39,827 nt of DNA from an uncultured Pseudomonadota bacterium (GTDB taxonomy: Bacteria > Pseudomonadota > Gammaproteobacteria > Ga0077536): NCBI GenBank assembly GCA_903825645.1, contig CAIKBL010000005.1, forward strand, positions 1-39,827. Reading direction: 5' to 3'. Below are positions 5,517 to 34,884 of the stretch, piece by piece. The notes beneath the pieces are model-generated. The model had not been told where the DNA came from. It did no database searches and was given only the letters and a program-made list of their open reading frames with translations. Each line of letters begins with the position of its first letter. Within the stretch, counting starts at the first letter, position 1. The translations under genes and the position numbers were made by a program.

Positions 5517-6758
5517 CTAGGGTCGGTATTCCGCCAACGGGGGTTGCCCCAGCGCTGCGCGGTAATTGTTATGGAAATGGTGAAGTGCGGGCTCGTTACG
5601 GCCGAACAGAAAATGCTCCACCAGTCCACTATTTGCCGCCGCCTGGGAGCGCGTGCCCATATAGTAGTCTTCGTGCTCTACGGTACTGATAAACAGCTCG
5701 GCACTGGCCTCATAGTTGAACTCAATGCGACTGGTCGTATCGATCTGGTAAAGATTCTCACCTGAAAGCTTTTGAATTTCGCCGCTGTCCACCACGTGGG
5801 CCGCGATATGCGGGATGGCGTAGTGCGAGACCCGGGTAATCGACTGCCCCACTTTCTTCGGATCCGGATAAATCCGCGCGAGTGCGATCATGCGGTTGAG
5901 CACGACAACTTGCACATTCGGAAACAGGTAGTACGCGACAACCGCACCGTCCGTGACACTCCAGTTTTCTTCCGGCTGATGACGCATCGTATCCAGATAT
6001 TTGCTCGCCAGGCAGATCCGGTGATTACGTCCGAATTCCTTGTAGGTGGCGACGTCCCCGTGCAGCAAATTGGCCAACGTGTCTTTATGCAGAGTACTGA
6101 AGTGGTAGACCTCGCCAAAGGTATCGTTCGCGATCTTCCAGTTGACCGGCATATCGAGCACGGTCTCGCCGTGATAGATCGCCTTATCGAACTGCCAGGT
6201 TTCCAACTCCGGGGCCAAATCTCCGAGCAGCGCATCGACATCGAGCGTGCCATCTATTTTTGGGTGAGCGAACAGCAGACCGTATTTTTCGACTGCAGGT
6301 AACTCCACCAGATTGAGACAAGCCTTATCGACGGCCCCAAACTGCTCTGGCGCACGCACGCCCATCAACTTCCCGTCATTGCGATAGGTCCAGCCGTGGA
6401 AAGGACAGGTAAAACGCGCCTGCTCTCCTCTCGCTTCTGCGGCCACATGCGCGCCACGATGTCGACAGGCGTTTACAAACACGTGGAACTTGCCATCGGC
6501 GTCTCGCGTCGCCAGCAGCGGAATACCGAAATCGTTAATCGTAATGTAGCTGCCGGGCGTGGGTAACTCCCCGGACAGGCCAATCATCTGCGGATGATTG
6601 GCGAAGAACGTATCCCATTCCTGCTTGGCGAGTGCTTCGCTGGTATAAGAAGCTACGGGATTGACTACCACGCGACCCGCATCGCAGGTTTGCTTTTCGT
6701 CAACGCTTCGAATCAAGTCTTTTAGGATTTGGATCTGCATCGCGTGCTGCATTGTCAT
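5517..6758 (-). CDS. Rieske ring-hydroxylating oxygenase, alpha (catalytic) subunit
   Basis: A 413-residue Rieske non-heme iron oxygenase. The [2Fe-2S] ligands form C-x-H-x17-C-x2-H: Cys98, His100, Cys118, His121 (counting from ATG 6758). The catalytic domain has the mononuclear iron motif NDTFGEVYHFSTLH, with His219 and His224 as ligands and Asp212 nearby. Such enzymes hydroxylate or demethylate aromatic or aliphatic substrates using electrons from a separate reductase. No beta subunit, ferredoxin or reductase gene is visible nearby, so it is probably an alpha-only type served in trans. An AGGAG lies upstream; the ATG at 6758 and the one two codons later are both possible starts. It is read divergently from the acyl-CoA dehydrogenase pair. 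Confidence 0.93.
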   Translation of the reverse strand: MTMQHAMQIQILKDLIRSVDEKQTCDAGRVVVNPVASYTSEALAKQEWDTFFANHPQMIGLSGELPTPGSYITINDFGIPLLATRDADGKFHVFVNACRHRGAHVAAEARGEQARFTCPFHGWTYRNDGKLMGVRAPEQFGAVDKACLNLVELPAVEKYGLLFAHPKIDGTLDVDALLGDLAPELETWQFDKAIYHGETVLDMPVNWKIANDTFGEVYHFSTLHKDTLANLLHGDVATYKEFGRNHRICLASKYLDTMRHQPEENWSVTDGAVVAYYLFPNVQVVVLNRMIALARIYPDPKKVGQSITRVSHYAIPHIAAHVVDSGEIQKLSGENLYQIDTTSRIEFNYEASAELFISTVEHEDYYMGTRSQAAANSGLVEHFLFGRNEPALHHFHNNYRAALGQPPLAEYRP

Positions 6759-6852
6759 AGGCTCCTGCTGTCATCCGTACTTCAGGTAACACCGCGAGAC
6801 ACCGAGTCGCCGGTATTCGTATCGAGAGATGCTTTCATCCTGCGGTAATTTA

Positions 6853-6882
6853 ATCAACGGCCTTTTGATGCTGCGACGCAGC
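6853..6882. promoter_or_regulatory. Candidate operator: two adjacent inverted repeats
   Basis: In the 215-base divergent spacer between the oxygenase and dehydrogenase genes there are two back-to-back inverted repeats. One is ATCAA-7-TTGAT (6853-6869); the other is GCTGCG-A-CGCAGC (6870-6882). A position midway between two divergent catabolic genes is where a repressor or activator would bind. No regulator gene is present in the window, so this is only a candidate. Confidence 0.3.
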
Positions 6883-6973
6883 TAAAATCTGCTGACCGTG
6901 GCAAGGTCGACGCACGCCCCTTCGTGCTCGGGCGTAAGGTAGAATACGACCCTCCCCAAACAGAGCAATCACC

Positions 6974-8161
6974 TTGGACACACTCGCAGCATTTCGTGCC
7001 GAGACCCGCGCCTGGCTTATCGATCATTGTCCGGACGCGATGCGTACGCCGCAGCCGGAGGACGAGCGCGTCTGGGGTGGGCGAAACGGGGTGTTCAAAC
7101 ATCCCGACAGCCAGCGCTGGCTAACCCAGATGGTTGCCCGGGGCTGGACGGTCCCTACCTGGCCGGTGGCGTATGGGGGCGGTGGGCTCAACAAGGAAGA
7201 GGCGATCATCCTCGACGAAGAAATGACCCGCCTCCAGTGCCGTATCCCGCTGTTCGGTTTCGGGATCAGCATGTTGGGCCCGGTGATGTTGAAATATGGG
7301 ACCGAGGCCCAGAAGCAACGATTCCTGCCGCCCATTGCGCGCGGCGAAATGCGCTGGTGCCAGGGTTATAGTGAGCCCAATGCGGGCTCTGATCTCGCGA
7401 ACCTGCAGACGCGCGCGGTCGATGATGGGGACGACCATTTTGTGGTCACCGGTCAGAAAATATGGACTTCTTACGCGAACCACGCTGACTGGATTTTCTG
7501 TCTGGTGCGGACCGACACGACCACCAAACAGGGCGGGATCAGTTTTCTGCTCTTTGACATGACGAGCCCCGGCGTCGAGACCCGTCCCATTACCCTGCTG
7601 AGCGGTGCCTCCGTGTTCTGTGAGACTTTCTTTGACCAGGTCCGTGTCCCGAAGGAAAATCTTGTCGGCAAACTGAACGAAGGATGGACCATCGCCAAGG
7701 AACTCCTGCAGCACGAGAGAGGCATGATTTCGCAGATAGGCCGCGCGGTCGGCGGGACAGTGCCTTCGGTCGAACGCGTAGCGCAGCATTATCTCGGTGA
7801 CGAGCAGGGTCGCATTCGTGATCCAGCGCTGCGTGACGCCATTGCGCAACATGTCATGAATGATCGCGCCTTCGCACTTACGATCCGACGCGCGAATGAA
7901 GCCAGTGCGGCCGGCGCCGGTGCCGGTGGCGCCTCCTCCATGTTCAAGTTCTATGGCACCGAACAGAACAAACGCAAATTCGAACTCATTCTCAAGTGCG
8001 CGGGCAGCCAAGGGCTGGGTTGGGAGGGCGATGAGTTTACCCCTGAAGAGTTACAGATATGTCGCAGTTGGCTGCGCTCAAAAGGGAATTCCATCGAAGG
8101 CGGCACCTCGGAGATCCAACTAAACGTCATTGCCAAGCGCGTGCTTGGCTTGCCGGATTGA
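6974..8161 (+). CDS. Acyl-CoA dehydrogenase, probable catalytic subunit
   Basis: A 395-residue FAD-dependent acyl-CoA dehydrogenase. The middle domain carries the flavin-contacting WCQGYSEPNAGSDLANL block and the ITGQKIWTSYA-like VVTGQKIWTSYA segment. The C-terminal helical domain ends with IEGGTSEIQLNVIAKRVLGLP, where the Glu of the EGGTSE motif matches the catalytic-base position of the medium-chain enzymes. It starts with TTG at 6974; no better start lies nearby and the Shine-Dalgarno is weak. It is followed after 8 bases by a second, dissimilar dehydrogenase, as in heteromeric enzymes that act on bulky acyl-CoAs such as steroid side chains. It introduces a 2,3-double bond into an acyl-CoA; the exact acyl group is not known. 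Confidence 0.93.
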   Translation: MDTLAAFRAETRAWLIDHCPDAMRTPQPEDERVWGGRNGVFKHPDSQRWLTQMVARGWTVPTWPVAYGGGGLNKEEAIILDEEMTRLQCRIPLFGFGISMLGPVMLKYGTEAQKQRFLPPIARGEMRWCQGYSEPNAGSDLANLQTRAVDDGDDHFVVTGQKIWTSYANHADWIFCLVRTDTTTKQGGISFLLFDMTSPGVETRPITLLSGASVFCETFFDQVRVPKENLVGKLNEGWTIAKELLQHERGMISQIGRAVGGTVPSVERVAQHYLGDEQGRIRDPALRDAIAQHVMNDRAFALTIRRANEASAAGAGAGGASSMFKFYGTEQNKRKFELILKCAGSQGLGWEGDEFTPEELQICRSWLRSKGNSIEGGTSEIQLNVIAKRVLGLPD

Positions 8162-21053: not shown

Positions 21054-21646
21054 GTATTCAAATCCTTCGAAGCGATCACTCGTGCATGGCGCATGACGGG
21101 CCGGAACGACAGGCGATGGACGGTCGTGATGATTCCGTGGTCGGCCAAGGCACGGAGATGATCGGCGGTCGGATAGCCTCGATGACGCTCAAAACCGTAG
21201 ACCGGATATGCCTCCGCCAACCTATCCATCAGCGCATCACGCGTCACTTTGGCAATAATGGAGGCGGCGCTGATGGCTGGTACGGTCGCGTCACCGCGCA
21301 CCACAGCCGTCGCGGTGCAGGCAAGCACAGGGCAGACATTGCCGTCCACTAATGCGTGGTGTGGCGCCACTGACAGTGCGGCGACGGCCCGTTGCATCGC
21401 CAGTAAGGTGGCGTGGTAAATGTTCAATTCATCAATCTCCGCCACGCTCGCCATGCCAATCCCATAACTTAACGCATCGCGCTCGATGAGGACGGATAAC
21501 GCTTCGCGGCGGCGTGCCGACAGTTTTTTGGAATCAGCGAGTCCCGCGATCGGACGGTGAGGATCGAGGATGACCGCAGCGGCCACGACCGGTCCCGCCA
21601 ATGGACCGCGTCCTGCTTCGTCAATGCCTGCAACCCACTCTTTCAT
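21050..21646 (-). CDS. rnhB: Ribonuclease HII
   Basis: A 198-residue endonuclease that cuts RNA in RNA-DNA hybrids and at single ribonucleotides misincorporated in DNA. The hallmark N-terminal [20 protein letters not shown] holds the first two catalytic acidic residues (DE). ADSKKLS, and later [16 protein letters not shown] with the conserved KxxRD, complete the family pattern; [13 protein letters not shown] is also typical. It overlaps lpxB upstream and dnaE downstream by 4 bases each, a fully coupled arrangement found widely in proteobacteria. Confidence 0.97.
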
Positions 21647-22812
21647 GCCTTTTCCCCCGGCAGGCGCACACGCACGGCCTGCTCACGCAGCAGTGCGAGA
21701 ATGGCTTCCGCGGCTGCCGCGCCGGCATTGTTGCGGAGCATTTGGTGCAATCTCAGGCACTCACTACGGAACGCCAGCACGCGCGCCTTGTCCCGCAACC
21801 AGTCGAACAGTGCCGTGGCCAAATTCTCAGGCGTCGCCTCTGCCTGAATATACTCCGGAATCACGGGCGTCCCGAGCAACAGATTGGGCAATGCGATGTA
21901 ATTAACGCGGACTAGGCGCCGTAACAGCGCGTAGGTCACGGGTGACATCTTATAGGCAACGACCGTTGGGGTCTTCGTCAACGCCGCTTCCAGTGTAATG
22001 GTGCCGGAAACGCACAGCGCGGCATCTGCCGCGGACAGCGCCGCGATGGACTGGCCGATCACGATCTGGAGCGCAATCCCGGCGCGGGCCGCCAGCACGG
22101 TCGCCTGCTGCGCCGCACTTTCATTCACAACCCCCAGCAGAAAGCGACAATCGGGTAGGCGCAACAGCAGTACTTTTGCCGCAGCTAAGAACAAGGGCAA
22201 GTGCAGTTGAGTTTCCTGCCGTCGGCTGCCCGGTAACAGCACCACCACAGGCGCATTGCCCGGCGTCAGACCCAGGCTGGCTTGTGCGGCCGCCCGATCG
22301 ACCTCCATAGGAATGCGATCGGCGAGCGGATGTCCCACGAAACGGGCTTCGATCCCGTGGGCGGCCAGAAAAGTCGTTTCGAACGGGAATAATGTCAGCA
22401 AACGGGTAATGGCGCGACGCATCGCCGGAATTCGGCCAGCACGCCAAGCCCAAACCTGAGGACACACGACATGAACGGTCGGGATCCCAGCGGCTTTGAG
22501 TTTGCGCTCCATATGCAACACAAAGTCGGGCACATCGATACCCACGAACACATCCGGCTTTAATTCGAGGAACTGCTGCAGGAGCGTATTGCGAAGACGT
22601 CTCAAACGCGGGTAGTGCCGCATCACTTCGACGAGCCCCATCACCGAAAGCGACTCGATTCCCGCCACTTCAAGACAACCCGCTCGCCTCATCTGCGGCC
22701 CAGCCATTGCCGTAATTTGGACATCGGGAACGCGCTCGCGAAGCCCTTGTATCAGCGACGCGCCGAGTTGATCGCCCGAAGGCTCGCCTGCAACGATGCC
22801 AACCCGCAACAT
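21643..22812 (-). CDS. lpxB: Lipid-A-disaccharide synthase
   Basis: A 389-residue glycosyltransferase (family GT19) that joins UDP-2,3-diacylglucosamine and lipid X to form the beta-1,6 disaccharide of lipid A at the inner membrane face. It begins [20 protein letters not shown] and carries [21 protein letters not shown], the [11 protein letters not shown] block and PGSRRQE, all strongly conserved. I prefer ATG 22812, 4 bases after the lpxA stop, over an upstream TTG at 22863 that would overlap lpxA by 47 bases and add a tail not seen in the family. It ends in an ATGA overlap with rnhB. Confidence 0.96.
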
Positions 22813-22816
22813 TCCA

Positions 22817-23602
22817 TCAGGTCGCCCGACAGCGGACAACCCCACGCGTACTCTTTCGGACAAAACTGATGTAGCGTTCGACTTCAGCGAACTGATTAGC
22901 GAGCGGCGTGAGTTCGTCCAAGGCTTTCTCTACGGTCAAGCCCTGACGATAAAGGACTTTGTACGCGCGTCGAATGGCCTCGATGACTTCCACGCTCATG
23001 CCGCGTCGACGCATGCCTTCGCGATTGATCGCACGTGCCCTGGCCGTGTTACCTTCGACCATCACGAACGGCGGCACGTCTTTGACAATCACCGCCGAAA
23101 TCGCCGTAAAACTCGACTCGCCGATTCGGCAAAATTGATGCACAGCCGCAAATCCCGCCAGAATCGCATAGTCCCCAATCTCTACATGCCCGGCGAGCGT
23201 GGCATTGTTGGCAAAAACCGTGTGATCACCCACATGGCAATCATGCGCGACATGGCAATACGCCATAATCCAGTTGTCGTTTCCAATCGTCGTCACCCCA
23301 CCACCGCCTGGTGTGCCCCGATTGATACTGCAGTATTCCCGAATCGTGTTCCCGTCCCCGATTTCTAGACGGGTTGGCGTACCTGCTTCGAACTTTTTGT
23401 CCTGCGGATCTTCGCCCAGCGAGCAGAATCCGTAGATGTGATTATTGGCGCCGATGCGCGTAGGGCCTTTAATGATGCAGTGCGCGTCCACGCGAGAACC
23501 AGCACCTATCTCGACGTCTTCACCGATAATGGTCCAGGGGCCGACCTTTACGTCTGACGCGAGGCGCGCCGTGGGATGAATACGTGCACTAGGATCAATC
23601 AA
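22817..23602 (-). CDS. lpxA: UDP-N-acetylglucosamine acyltransferase
   Basis: A 261-residue left-handed beta-helix enzyme that adds the first 3-hydroxyacyl chain to UDP-GlcNAc, the first step of lipid A synthesis. Hexapeptide repeats (IHPTARLASDVKVGPW and onward) fill the first two thirds. The catalytic His lies in the CHVAHDCHVGD block, and GFAAVHQFCRIG and the helical C-terminal tail are typical. It starts with TTG (23600-23602) inside a TTGA overlap with the fabZ stop, so its translation depends on fabZ. This enzyme, fabZ and lpxB sit together, but the next acyltransferase gene, lpxD, is missing from its usual place. Confidence 0.96.
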   Translation of the reverse strand: MIDPSARIHPTARLASDVKVGPWTIIGEDVEIGAGSRVDAHCIIKGPTRIGANNHIYGFCSLGEDPQDKKFEAGTPTRLEIGDGNTIREYCSINRGTPGGGGVTTIGNDNWIMAYCHVAHDCHVGDHTVFANNATLAGHVEIGDYAILAGFAAVHQFCRIGESSFTAISAVIVKDVPPFVMVEGNTARARAINREGMRRRGMSVEVIEAIRRAYKVLYRQGLTVEKALDELTPLANQFAEVERYISFVRKSTRGVVRCRAT

Positions 23603-24048
23603 GCCCGATCCTCCATTTCGGTCGTCATGAATTCAGCACTGGAAACGAGATGTTCCCCGACATGGGCGGTGGCGGTGAACTTATAAATTCCGCGGATCTT
23701 GCGCTGCAGATGTGCCACCAGGATCAACTGATCGCCCGGTTCGACCGGCCGCTTGAAACGCGCTTTGTCGACACCGACCAGATAGTAGATATTTTTGCTC
23801 TGCGAGCGCGCCTGATGGGAATGGAAAGCCAGCAAACCGGTTGCTTGCGCCATTGCTTCGAGAATCAACACGCCGGGCATAATCGGTTTGCCGGGGAAGT
23901 GCCCCTGAAAAAAGGGCTCTGTGGCTGTCACGTTCTTAATCGCCTTAATACTCTTGAAGGCGGTGCACTCGAGCACCCTGTCCACGAGCAGGAAGGGGTA
24001 ACGATGCGGCAGGATATCAAAGATTTCCCGAATCGCGATTTCGCCCAT
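23599..24048 (-). CDS. fabZ: (3R)-hydroxyacyl-ACP dehydratase
   Basis: A 149-residue hot-dog fold dehydratase of fatty acid elongation. PHRYPFLLVDRV with the catalytic His and HFPGKPIMPGVLILEAMAQ with the catalytic Glu are unmistakable. I chose ATG 24048 rather than a start at 24192: it gives the normal family length, and AAGGAA lies at the right distance upstream. The 48 codons before it lack family similarity. FabZ competes with LpxA/LpxD for 3-hydroxyacyl-ACP, so its coupling to lpxA by a 4-base overlap balances phospholipid and lipid A output. Confidence 0.97.
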   Translation of the reverse strand: MGEIAIREIFDILPHRYPFLLVDRVLECTAFKSIKAIKNVTATEPFFQGHFPGKPIMPGVLILEAMAQATGLLAFHSHQARSQSKNIYYLVGVDKARFKRPVEPGDQLILVAHLQRKIRGIYKFTATAHVGEHLVSSAEFMTTEMEDRA

Positions 24049-24425
24049 GTCAATTTCCTTGATTTTCGCGACCGACTTCGCCGTTACAGTTATTCCTAAC
24101 GCTCGGCAACACGCTGAGGAGATCCCGTGCGCGGGCCATTCTTTATAAGCACTGCTCAACCGGATCTTTGTTTTACGGGACACACTCGCCATGCGAGGGG
24201 TCCCGATAAGATTTCAACATCGGATCAGCGCAACACCGCCCGTGCAGACGTATCGTCTACCCTCGCGCTGGGTGGCTACCCGGATCGCCAAGCACGCTTG
24301 GCCGAATTACAACTAGAAATCCGACCAGACCAAGAGCGCACGAGAGTGACCGGAGGGCCTCTCCCACCAGCGCCCGGCGTGGGGCGCCCTAAATTTCAGG
24401 ACGCCCGCCGTCGGCCAGAGAAGAG
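24049..24425. other. Gap between ompH and fabZ where lpxD is expected
   Basis: 377 bases without a supported gene, at the position of lpxD (about 1 kb) in related genomes. All three minus-strand frames have stops and show no hexapeptide repeats. A plus-strand frame is open to 24429 and has a faint LpxD-like look at 24300-24420; see the findings. The only other feature is a GC-rich hairpin at 24370-24387. Confidence 0.6.
24370..24387 (-). terminator. GC-rich hairpin after ompH
   Basis: A stem of GCGCCC / GGGCGC with a 6-base loop, about 40 bases after the ompH stop. No T-run follows in minus-strand sense. It may slow or partly end transcription between the bamA-ompH and fabZ-lpxAB segments. 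Confidence 0.3.
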
Positions 24426-24944
24426 TTAGGGGTTATTTTTCTTCAGGCGCTCGATGACGCTCTCGGTAATATCGACCGCCTTGCTCGCATAAATCACGCT
24501 CTCACCAAGCACGAGGTCGTATTTTTGCTCGTCGGCAATTTGCTTGATTGATTCGATAATCATGCGCTGAATTTTACCGAATTCTTCATTCTTGCGGAAA
24601 TTGACGTCTTCACGGAACTCATCCGAATCACGCTTCAGGTCGCGCTGTTTCGAGACGATTTCTCGATCAAGTCGAGTGCGTTCGGTGTCACTCATGATCG
24701 CGCCATCTTTATTGATCCGGTCCTGCAGTGACTTCAGGTCTTTCTGCGTTTCGAGCAGTTTTTTATCGCGCCCTGAAAACTCACTTTCAAGTTTCTTTTT
24801 GGCAATGGCTGCCTGCGGTGCCGCATCAAGCACCCTAACGGCGTTCACCACCCCGATTTTATACTCTCCGGCCAAGGCAGAGCACGAGATCAGCAGTGCA
24901 CCGACCAGAACCAGCGAACCTTGTCTAAGCTTCATCATGTTCAA
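24426..24944 (-). CDS. skp: OmpH/Skp family periplasmic chaperone
   Basis: A 172-residue Skp-like chaperone that holds unfolded outer-membrane proteins in the periplasm and passes them to the Bam complex. An N-terminal signal peptide (about residues 1-25, ending CSALAGEYK) is followed by the conserved KIGVVNAVRVLDAAP strand, a long charged coiled-coil region (about residues 50-130) that would form the tentacles, and a closing strand with YDLVLGESVIYAS. The start may be TTG 24944 (7 bases after GGAG) or ATG 24938/24935, which are more distant from it. It follows bamA, its functional partner, by 52 bases. Confidence 0.93.
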   Translation of the reverse strand: MNMMKLRQGSLVLVGALLISCSALAGEYKIGVVNAVRVLDAAPQAAIAKKKLESEFSGRDKKLLETQKDLKSLQDRINKDGAIMSDTERTRLDREIVSKQRDLKRDSDEFREDVNFRKNEEFGKIQRMIIESIKQIADEQKYDLVLGESVIYASKAVDITESVIERLKKNNP

Positions 24945-24996: not shown

Positions 24997-27291
24997 TCAG
25001 AACGTGGTTCCAAAGGTAAACTGGAACACTTGGACATGGTCTGTCGGCTGCTTGTTAAACGGCTTGGCGATGCTAACTGAAATCGCACCAAACGGCGAGA
25101 GCCATATCCCGGACACGCCAGCGGACATCCGAGTTTCTCTGAACTTGATGGGATCGTACAGCGTATTCCAGACGTCTCCGACGTCGTAGAAGGCCGACAC
25201 TCGCACCGATTTCATCTCGCGCAGTCCGGGCACCGGCAGCACCAATTCGGCATTACCGATGACCATCACGTTACCACCGGTGGCCCGGCCATACTGGTCT
25301 TGTCTACCCAGTGTACTTTCTTCATAGCCTCGGACCGTGCGTGGCCCACCCGCATAGAAGTTTTCCCAGAACGGAAATTCGAAGGTATTACCATACACCG
25401 CGCCGTACCCGGCCTGCCCCTTCAGTACAAACACGTAATCCCGACCCAGGTCGAAGAAATAGCGGGAGTCATAATTGACTTTGTAGAAGAGCAGATCGCC
25501 TAACGGCACCGTTCCTTCTAGCTTGATCGACTGCAGCACGCCGTCCGTCGGAAAAATGGTCGCGTTCCGGGTGTCGTAAGCATACCCCGCGCTTAGACGC
25601 ACATCGTTGTAGTGGTTGCCTTCAACGAGAATGAACTGGAGCACCTGAGGATCAAGATAGAGCGGATTCGCATTGATCGACGTGTCCTCGAAGGCGACAC
25701 CAAATGACAGCGCATTGTATTCGCTGATGGGCACGCCGAAATTCAATCCCGTCGACAGCGTCTTCGAATCATAGGCTGTAATCTGCTGGTTCGTGCCGTT
25801 GATGGCAGAATACTGCGCAAAGGCGCCAACGCTGACACCATCGATAGTCCAGTACGGATCGGTGAAACCAAGGCGATAGAGTGTTTGGATGTCACTATTA
25901 CTGAACGCAAAAGTGACGTTTTTCCCACTACCGAGGAAGTTATTCTGCGACACATTCGCATTGAAAATAATCCCAGCCGTCTGGGCATAACCGACACCCA
26001 AACTTAACGTGCCCGAGGGCCTTTCCTTCACGGTATAATTGACATCAACGCGGTCAATCGAGCCCGCGACCGCCGGCGTCTCGACATTGACGTCTTCGAA
26101 ATACCCGAGGCGCTGGAGACGAACTTTTGAGCGCTCAACGGCCTTCGTGGAAATCCAACCGCCTTCCAGTTGCCGCATCTCGCGCCGCAATACTTCATCG
26201 CGCGTTTTGGAGTTCCCGTTGAAACTGACCCGCCGCACGTACACGCGCTGTCCCGGATCAACGTAGTAGGTGAGGTTAACCGTTTTCGTGGCGGGATTGA
26301 TCTTGGGAATAGCGTTCACGTTCGCAAACGCGTAGCCCTCCTCGCCCAGTCGGTCGCCCAAATCCTTTTGCGTCTGCGTCACGCTTTTACGTGAAAACAG
26401 CATGCCCTGGCGTGTCTGTATTTTCTCGAGCAGTAATTTTTCGTCGATGATGAGGCGGCCCGAGAGCTTCACGGTGCCGATGTTATAGCGATTACCTTCG
26501 TTGATATTGATGGTGATATAAACGCCGGATTTGTCCGGCGTGATGGAAACCTGGGTCGAGTCAATTTTGAAATCAACAAAACCGTCATCCTGGTATCTGG
26601 AGCGAAGCGTCTCTAAGTCCGCCGCGAGTTTCTGCTTGGAATATTGGTCGTTCTTGCTGAACCAACTGGTCCACGTGGGAGTGGTCAGCTTGAACTCTCT
26701 CAGCAGTGTTGAGGTCGGAAACGATTTATTGCCGACGATATTGATCGCTTGAATGCGGGCTGCAAGCCCCTCAACGATTTTGAAATTGACGGTGACACTG
26801 CTCGAATCGAGCGGCGTGACCGTTGGTTCGATCTTGCTGCCGTAATGCCCATTGGAGTAGTACTGGCGACTCAGTTCCTGCACAACCCGGTCAAGCTTGG
26901 CTTCGTCGAAGACATCTCCCTTTGCGAAGCCGGCTCCTTTTAGCCCCTTCAGCAGATCATCTTTTTTAATAGCCTTGTTGCCCTCAAACGTGATGTCGGC
27001 AATCGACTCACGTTCGACCAACGAGACGACGAGCACATCCCCCTTGCGGCTAAGCCGGACGTCTTTGAACAGGCCGGTCTTGAACAGTGTCCGCAGCGCT
27101 TCTTGGCTGCGCTTCTCGTCGATTTTGTCGCCAATGGTAATCGGCAGGTAATTAAACACCGTCCCTGGCGTGATACGTTTTAGACCTTCGACTTGGATGT
27201 CGTCGACGATAAACTCGTCTGCGCGCGCTACTTGTAGGGACAGGGCCATCGAAAGGCACGCCATCCATCGTAAGGCTCGGGGTTTCGCCAT
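24997..27291 (-). CDS. bamA: Outer membrane protein assembly factor BamA
   Basis: A 764-residue Omp85 protein, the core of the machine that inserts beta-barrel proteins into the outer membrane. Residues 1-24 form a signal peptide ending AARA/DE. Five POTRA domains follow (about residues 25-425; the first begins FIVDDIQVEGLKRITPGTV). The C-terminal 16-strand barrel has the conserved GGPRTVRGYEESTLG loop, a VRGF-type motif, near residue 650 and ends FQFTFGTTF with the terminal aromatic insertion signal. Length and layout match the family. It lies between rseP and skp as expected. Confidence 0.97.
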   Translation of the reverse strand: MAKPRALRWMACLSMALSLQVARADEFIVDDIQVEGLKRITPGTVFNYLPITIGDKIDEKRSQEALRTLFKTGLFKDVRLSRKGDVLVVSLVERESIADITFEGNKAIKKDDLLKGLKGAGFAKGDVFDEAKLDRVVQELSRQYYSNGHYGSKIEPTVTPLDSSSVTVNFKIVEGLAARIQAINIVGNKSFPTSTLLREFKLTTPTWTSWFSKNDQYSKQKLAADLETLRSRYQDDGFVDFKIDSTQVSITPDKSGVYITININEGNRYNIGTVKLSGRLIIDEKLLLEKIQTRQGMLFSRKSVTQTQKDLGDRLGEEGYAFANVNAIPKINPATKTVNLTYYVDPGQRVYVRRVSFNGNSKTRDEVLRREMRQLEGGWISTKAVERSKVRLQRLGYFEDVNVETPAVAGSIDRVDVNYTVKERPSGTLSLGVGYAQTAGIIFNANVSQNNFLGSGKNVTFAFSNSDIQTLYRLGFTDPYWTIDGVSVGAFAQYSAINGTNQQITAYDSKTLSTGLNFGVPISEYNALSFGVAFEDTSINANPLYLDPQVLQFILVEGNHYNDVRLSAGYAYDTRNATIFPTDGVLQSIKLEGTVPLGDLLFYKVNYDSRYFFDLGRDYVFVLKGQAGYGAVYGNTFEFPFWENFYAGGPRTVRGYEESTLGRQDQYGRATGGNVMVIGNAELVLPVPGLREMKSVRVSAFYDVGDVWNTLYDPIKFRETRMSAGVSGIWLSPFGAISVSIAKPFNKQPTDHVQVFQFTFGTTF

Positions 27292-34735: not shown

Positions 34736-34772
34736 TTAACAATCTCCTGTGTGGGTTATGCCTCCACGGGTC

Positions 34773-34827
34773 CTGTACATCTATCCTGGCAGGGCTGAAA
34801 ACCCGTCCCGGACACCCAGGTGTACAG
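34773..34827 (-). promoter_or_regulatory. Structured rpsB leader, possible S2-binding operator
   Basis: The rpsB 5' leader contains nested complementary arms: CTGTACA (34821-34827) with TGTACAG (34773-34779), then CCTGG (34816-34820) with CCAGG (34785-34789), and a GGG/CCC apical stem. Position and complexity fit the known autoregulatory leader of rpsB-tsf in gammaproteobacteria, to which S2 binds. Similarity to that element was not tested. Confidence 0.5.
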
Positions 34828-34884
34828 TTAATGACACGTGTGTGGGGTATTTGAACTTTTCTTCATTGCTCTAAGAGCGCGCGC

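Follow-up and report, generated by a model that had tools for sequence, protein, structure and literature searches.

We wondered how a gammaproteobacterium might complete its lipid A when lpxD is missing from the place where the operon should carry it. In the window, the whole stretch of 39,827 nucleotides analyzed here, open reading frames (ORFs) on the minus strand follow the order rpsB-tsf-pyrH-frr-uppS-cdsA-dxr-rseP-bamA-skp-gap-fabZ-lpxA-lpxB-rnhB-dnaE-accA, and the gap lies exactly at the skp-fabZ position that lpxD occupies in E. coli.

The empty skp-fabZ junction

Family-model scans backed the names of four genes around the gap, all on the minus strand: bamA (24997-27291; Pfam POTRA 244.6 bits, Omp85 243.2 bits), skp, encoding an OmpH-family periplasmic chaperone (24426-24944; Pfam OmpH 103 bits), fabZ, encoding a 3-hydroxyacyl-ACP dehydratase (23599-24048; Pfam FabA-like domain 119.7 bits), and lpxA, encoding a UDP-GlcNAc O-acyltransferase (22817-23602; Pfam PF13720 95.9 bits). 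The remaining genes of the window were named by recognition, the names of lpxB, rnhB, dnaE and rseP resting also on the match to E. coli gene order. For lpxB (21643-22863, minus strand), the lipid A disaccharide synthase gene, homologous ORFs were found at the same place in relatives. Directly upstream of rpsB, a t44 RNA match (34755-34862, minus strand; RF00127, 51.7 bits, gathering cut-off 44) is probably an ordinary rpsB leader.

The interval between skp and fabZ (24049-24425, minus strand) measures 377 bp and holds no ORF with homology. The fabZ ORF can be extended upstream to an in-frame ATG at 24192, which would shrink the gap to 233 bp. FabZ homology sets in at about 24048, where the alignment starts in most relatives; these align only from residue 42-61 of the longer ORF, the two exceptions being G022 (from residue 2) and G015 (from residue 24). 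An ORF on the plus strand that lies mostly inside the gap (24127-24429) found no conservation support, as the gap DNA of the window genome (G000) aligned to that of its congener G002 no better than shuffled sequence, and the same comparison revealed no conserved element. Nor did the window gap contain a significant lpxD remnant: the best score of 46 was equalled by 3 of 60 dinucleotide shuffles and, with stops read as X, by 27 of 100 mononucleotide shuffles. This best hit, a 23-residue C-terminal-like stretch matching the operonic LpxD of G011, was rejected because it did not stand clearly above shuffles. The window is free of ambiguous bases (N). The original prediction that lpxD is missing from an otherwise complete bamA-skp-fabZ-lpxA-lpxB block thus describes a real gap.

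The window genome is a draft of 90 contigs (99.5% complete), and a draft may contain an assembly error or a collapsed region at this point, as the original prediction had itself considered. However, comparison of the gap in relatives, which it had suggested, showed that among the 31 family genomes with a readable junction lpxD is kept in nine and absent from 22. The junction is empty without N in all of these 22, which include four other congeners, and we therefore assign an assembly artefact a negligible probability.

The longest empty junctions belong to two members of genus g10, G014 (L061, 610 bp) and G025 (L074, 443 bp). The G025 gap contains weak pieces resembling an lpxD N-terminus, collinear with residues 9-35 and 37-49 of the operonic copy of G020. 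Controls were mixed, with scores as high in 1 of 60 dinucleotide and 15 of 100 mononucleotide shuffles; at the DNA level the alignment of this gap to G020 scored 29 versus a maximum of 26 among 50 shuffles. The pieces are suggestive of a possible remnant.

A distant LpxD and its distribution in the family

The original prediction had proposed searching the full genome with the LpxD model. In the window genome, TIGR01853 (LpxD equivalog; curated cut-off 242.5 bits) returned a single match over the cut-off, on contig C8 and away from the operon (C8:30057-31007, 333.8 bits, E 1.1e-99); the protein on its own scored 334.3 bits and spans positions 1-318 of the 325 in the model. The matches inside the window (48.4 and 35.3 bits) are weak cross-matches to lpxA. 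The C8 protein also scored 347.9 bits against PRK00892, an NCBIfam model for a broader subfamily with a cut-off of 207 bits, and is a full-length member of the LpxD family over both cut-offs. We refer to this type of LpxD as D2. The D2 gene of the window genome, identified by profile match, encodes 331 amino acids (L036:8028-9023) and lies among metabolic genes, with an HMG-CoA lyase-like gene on one side and, on the other, pgpA, ilvD and genes for a VKOR-domain protein and a lytic transglycosylase.

The window genome also has the other lipid A genes that we looked for, with matches to LpxC (403.1 bits), LpxH (251.8 bits), LpxK (253.5 bits), a WaaA domain (235.5 bits) and a weak LpxL-family match (39.7 bits versus a cut-off of 22.3). 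With these present the lipid A pathway looks whole, and D2 would be active and essential in it. That the LpxD step was truly lost, or is performed by an acyltransferase outside the LpxD family, is barely conceivable to us: the empty junction itself is the one point in its favor, whereas D2 exceeds two curated cut-offs and keeps the equivalents of His239, Asp232, Gly257 and His276 (E. coli numbering). Among the outcomes offered by the original prediction, outright loss is contradicted by the gene on C8, and replacement by a distant acyltransferase came nearest, although the replacing enzyme turns out to be a full-length LpxD, scoring over the TIGR01853 cut-off and belonging to a remote branch of the LpxD family. 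The case cautions against judging a lipid A pathway incomplete by what its operon contains.

TIGR01853 profile searches identified D2 in 34 of 36 family genomes, covering all ten genera. At least three of seven tested neighbor genes were present at each of the 34 loci, that of the window genome included; HMG-CoA lyase was found at 30, SLT and IlvD at 27 each, ArgA and PgpA at 24 each, Gor at 23 and VKOR at 21, counts that include some loci cut by contig ends. The occurrence of D2 across ten genera at one conserved locus indicates that it predates the radiation of the family. In the two genomes without D2, G028 (57% complete) and G033, the locus is probably unassembled, since both lack a close HMG-CoA lyase neighbor: G028 has none and G033 has one of 42% identity, compared with 55-64% in the other four genomes searched.

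The lpxD gene between skp and fabZ, hereafter operonic lpxD, was retained in G005, which belongs to the window's own genus, and in G013, G012, G019, G020, G028, G011, G018 and G010. Eight of these nine genomes carry D2 as well, the exception being the incomplete G028. Operonic lpxD was absent from five of six genomes in the window's genus, from all eight readable genomes of g4, from four of g3, two of g5 and one of g2, and from two of the four g10 members. By parsimony on a quick species tree of 14 concatenated proteins this pattern requires at least six changes, a number also forced by the starred branches, and counting losses only, by eye on the same tree, gives 7 or 8, depending on where G005 is placed. 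Operonic lpxD may accordingly have been lost about 6-8 times in the family, an approximate number, as the tree is rooted by a single long outgroup and places the small AT-rich genera g2, g3 and g5 unsurely.

Absence of operonic lpxD is unusual for the class. TIGR01853 detected an LpxD over the cut-off in 19 of 22 class genomes from other families; among the matches listed, an lpxA-like cross-match lay close to LpxD in 17 of the 19, and in the remaining two (G052, G057) the lpxD-fabZ-lpxA arrangement was directly observed. Two of the three genomes under the cut-off had weak matches (G043, G055) and one had no match (G053). In a sample of 369 class genomes, the four that belong to the family reached 545-560 bits against a D2 profile, and no other genome exceeded 297 bits. 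Second LpxD copies as such are not rare: at least two D2-profile matches at E <= 1e-60 were seen in 16 (one a family member) of the 335 class genomes that matched, a count for which up to six candidates per genome were scored and which may include split genes.

Phylogenetic separation of D2 and operonic LpxD

That the window genome has a single LpxD above the cut-off, and at an unexpected place, might mean that operonic lpxD itself simply moved to C8, as the original prediction had also envisaged. However, the two genes coexist in eight family members, and operonic orthologues, where kept, still lie between skp and fabZ. In both of two LpxD trees, a quick one of 102 and a careful one of 45 LpxDs, D2 and the operonic copies each formed one fully supported group, and a single clade uniting them was rejected (p-AU 0.016, the clades for AU tests having been named after the first tree was seen). 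Because of this co-occurrence and separation we rejected relocation, which we consider very unlikely. The same test argues that D2 is not an in-family duplicate of the operonic gene, and we rejected that source as well.

The operonic copies, borne on a long stem, branched within the LpxDs of the Gammaproteobacteria. D2 lay outside this class clade in both trees (clade support 92 in the quick and 100/100 in the careful tree). The careful tree put D2 among LpxDs of Acidobacteriota, Verrucomicrobiota, Nitrospirota and others, whereas in the quick tree D2 and a Parvibaculum LpxD adjoined the class clade, at a weak support of 41. Grouping D2 with all gammaproteobacterial LpxDs against other phyla was not rejected (p-AU 0.40). 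In view of this value and the weak placement in the quick tree, D2 may be of foreign origin or may equally be a paralogue of great age. Among the matches listed, D2 was 33-43% identical to the 79 other loci, and no donor was singled out. The closest solved structure to D2 by sequence was 2iu8, of the entry group of Chlamydia LpxD (207.4 bits); 3eh0, which we take to be E. coli LpxD, scored 169.5 bits. For the operonic copy of G005, the closest structures were 6uec/6ued/3pmo (143.5 bits), presumably those of Pseudomonas aeruginosa LpxD. From these data we conclude that operonic lpxD was probably displaced by a distant LpxD, D2.

Divergence of the operonic copies and the acyl-chain ruler

We then compared the two types of LpxD where they coexist. 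The operonic protein was less identical than D2 in 8 of 8 genome pairs (for example 84 vs 95%, 62 vs 82% and 40 vs 65%). Against TIGR01853, eight of the nine operonic copies scored 195-240.4 bits, under the cut-off of 242.5, and that of G020 was at the cut-off (242.4 bits, or 242.7 with neighbors in frame); three copies rescored alone yielded 209.9, 239.6 and 209.7 bits. The PRK00892 cut-off of 207 was passed by the three of the nine that were scanned (237.5, 274.7 and 221.4 bits). The reading frame is open in all operonic copies. For the two closest pairs, dN/dS was about 0.16 for the operonic gene vs 0.13 for D2, and 0.28 vs 0.19. Both genes thus have values far below 1, the operonic one slightly the higher, indicating that the operonic copies are not neutral pseudogenes and are under constraint. 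As operonic dS was higher too (0.54 vs 0.17 and 1.17 vs 0.68), part of the operonic speed is not relaxed constraint. The operonic copies may retain a function or have altered it.

To compare residues, here given in E. coli numbering, we aligned 34 D2, 9 operonic, 42 class and 79 other-phyla LpxDs. For E. coli LpxD, a review names His239 as the catalytic base and Gly257 as the residue stabilizing the oxyanion, and reports a 32-fold drop in kcat for H276A (PMC6286764). His239, Asp232 and Gly257 were retained in every aligned LpxD. His276 was kept in 34/34 D2, 41/42 class and 78/79 other-phyla proteins vs 0/9 operonic copies, all of which have Gly, and Asn240 in 34/34 D2 and 40/42 class proteins vs 0/9 operonic ones. 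Gln236, a contact to the 3-hydroxyl that does not define the family, was mostly lost from the operonic copies; in D2 it is replaced by Met (32/34), Val (1) or Ile (1), and Met at this position occurs elsewhere in 2/42 class and 4/79 other-phyla LpxDs. On the UDP side, positions 44 and 47 vary in D2, with no Asn among the residues listed at 44. These departures from E. coli LpxD count against taking D2 as a wholly standard enzyme.

The same review describes Met290 as the residue that closes the acyl pocket of E. coli LpxD, M290A as a variant that admits C16 and C18 chains, and Chlamydia LpxD as having Gly at this ruler position and transferring a 20-carbon chain (PMC6286764). D2 carries Gly in 22, Val in 7, Met in 3, Ser in 1 and Leu in 1 of 34 proteins, and the operonic copies carry Met (6), Leu (2) or His (1). 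The D2 of the window genome has Val, not Met, and differs from gammaproteobacterial LpxDs also in lying outside the bamA-skp-fabZ-lpxA operon and outside the class clade. Class LpxDs mostly have Met (18) or Leu (11). Because Gly is usual at the ruler outside the class (65 of 79 in other phyla), its presence in D2 gives no more than a hint that the chains are longer. Longer N-linked acyl chains are possible with D2, so that the altered lipid A mentioned in the original prediction could take the form of a changed chain length. The window LpxA has Ile in place of E. coli Gly173, which we take to be a chain-length position.

We propose that the family ancestor already had D2 at a chromosomal site beside HMG-CoA lyase, VKOR and pgpA genes. 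By supplying the UDP-3-O-acylglucosamine N-acyltransferase, D2 would have relaxed the constraint on the gammaproteobacterial LpxD of the operon, and we infer that its gain was the cause of this relaxation. The operonic LpxD would then have evolved fast, losing His276, Asn240 and mostly Gln236 on the substrate side, and its gene would have been deleted repeatedly, one of these deletions falling in the window's own lineage. The window genome would represent the end state, in which the operonic gene is gone, D2 is the sole LpxD identified and the usual pathway yields lipid A, perhaps with a different acyl chain length. The full combination, in which the family exchanged its LpxD for a distantly related xenologue whose ruler is open, with amide-linked chains longer than is normal for gammaproteobacteria, and the operonic enzyme lost the function of His276 before being deleted about 6-8 times, is tentative and we consider it rather unlikely as a whole. 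A single family offers both the two-copy stage and the stage without the old copy for comparison, which makes the order of gain, relaxation and deletion testable.

Two LpxDs in one genome are already known from Francisella, in which lpxD1 is presumably the operonic copy, and from Leptospira. According to one report, the LpxD1 and LpxD2 of Francisella add different acyl chains depending on temperature (PMC4688374), and the parallel to the present family is that of two LpxDs within one gammaproteobacterium. By analogy, the two enzymes might add different chains under different conditions, with lineages living in one regime dropping the operonic copy. Their open frames, retained His239 and dN/dS below 1 fit such a division of labor, as does the ruler position, at which 6 of 9 operonic copies have Met but most of the 34 D2 proteins have Gly (22) or Val (7), given the effect of M290A described above. 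However, the equivalent of His276, replacement of which was so costly in E. coli, is absent from 9 of 9 operonic copies, and operonic identity was lower in all eight pairs; unlike in Francisella, one copy was repeatedly lost, the survivors lack His276, and the genomes offer no evidence of temperature switching. We consider this explanation possible, if somewhat unlikely. The surviving operonic copies may still provide a special acyl pattern or may be in the course of being lost.

The Leptospira case, in a different phylum, resembles ours in copy number: two lpxD copies are annotated in all genomes except one subclade, P2 (PMC10248169). A further parallel is the loss of lpxH2 where lpxH is present, an older form being lost in the presence of another; the authors infer in-lineage duplication there, which is the difference from D2, and this Kdo2-lipid A gene study across bacteria gives Gloeobacter as an example of lpxD duplication (PMC3087551). 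The function of LpxH2 is called unknown in a later review (PMC6286764). Displacement of lpxD would mean that an essential-pathway gene was replaced in a cluster kept almost everywhere examined in the class. Among the papers listed from the open-licence literature, surveyed by titles and abstract openings, we found no report of a family-wide displacement of operonic lpxD. In this family, a gene that occupies the canonical position may have ceased to perform the standard function.

Further irregularities were observed among the relatives. Profile searches did not match LpxC in five family genomes, G003, G014, G020, G035 and G028; the expected lpxC place reads N in G003, and G028 is the genome that is 57% complete. 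ftsZ was likewise unmatched in G014, G020 and G035 (94, 98 and 86% complete), and in these three the missing ftsZ and lpxC are probably missing sequence, not biology. Two g4 genomes carry a second, divergent LpxA that is 49% identical to the window LpxA (G022, L063:4899-5654; G016, L064:1496-2251). Divergent LpxD-like genes of neither D2 nor operonic type occur in G018 (L107, about 6507-7162) and G032 (L108, about 6280-7106), with 169 and 196 bits; they group together near a G051 gene, at a point where long branches meet. The congener G004 encodes a third type of LpxD on a long branch (L039:7019-8020 on contig C27), which lies away from both the D2 and the operonic loci and scores 306.8 bits, over the TIGR01853 cut-off.
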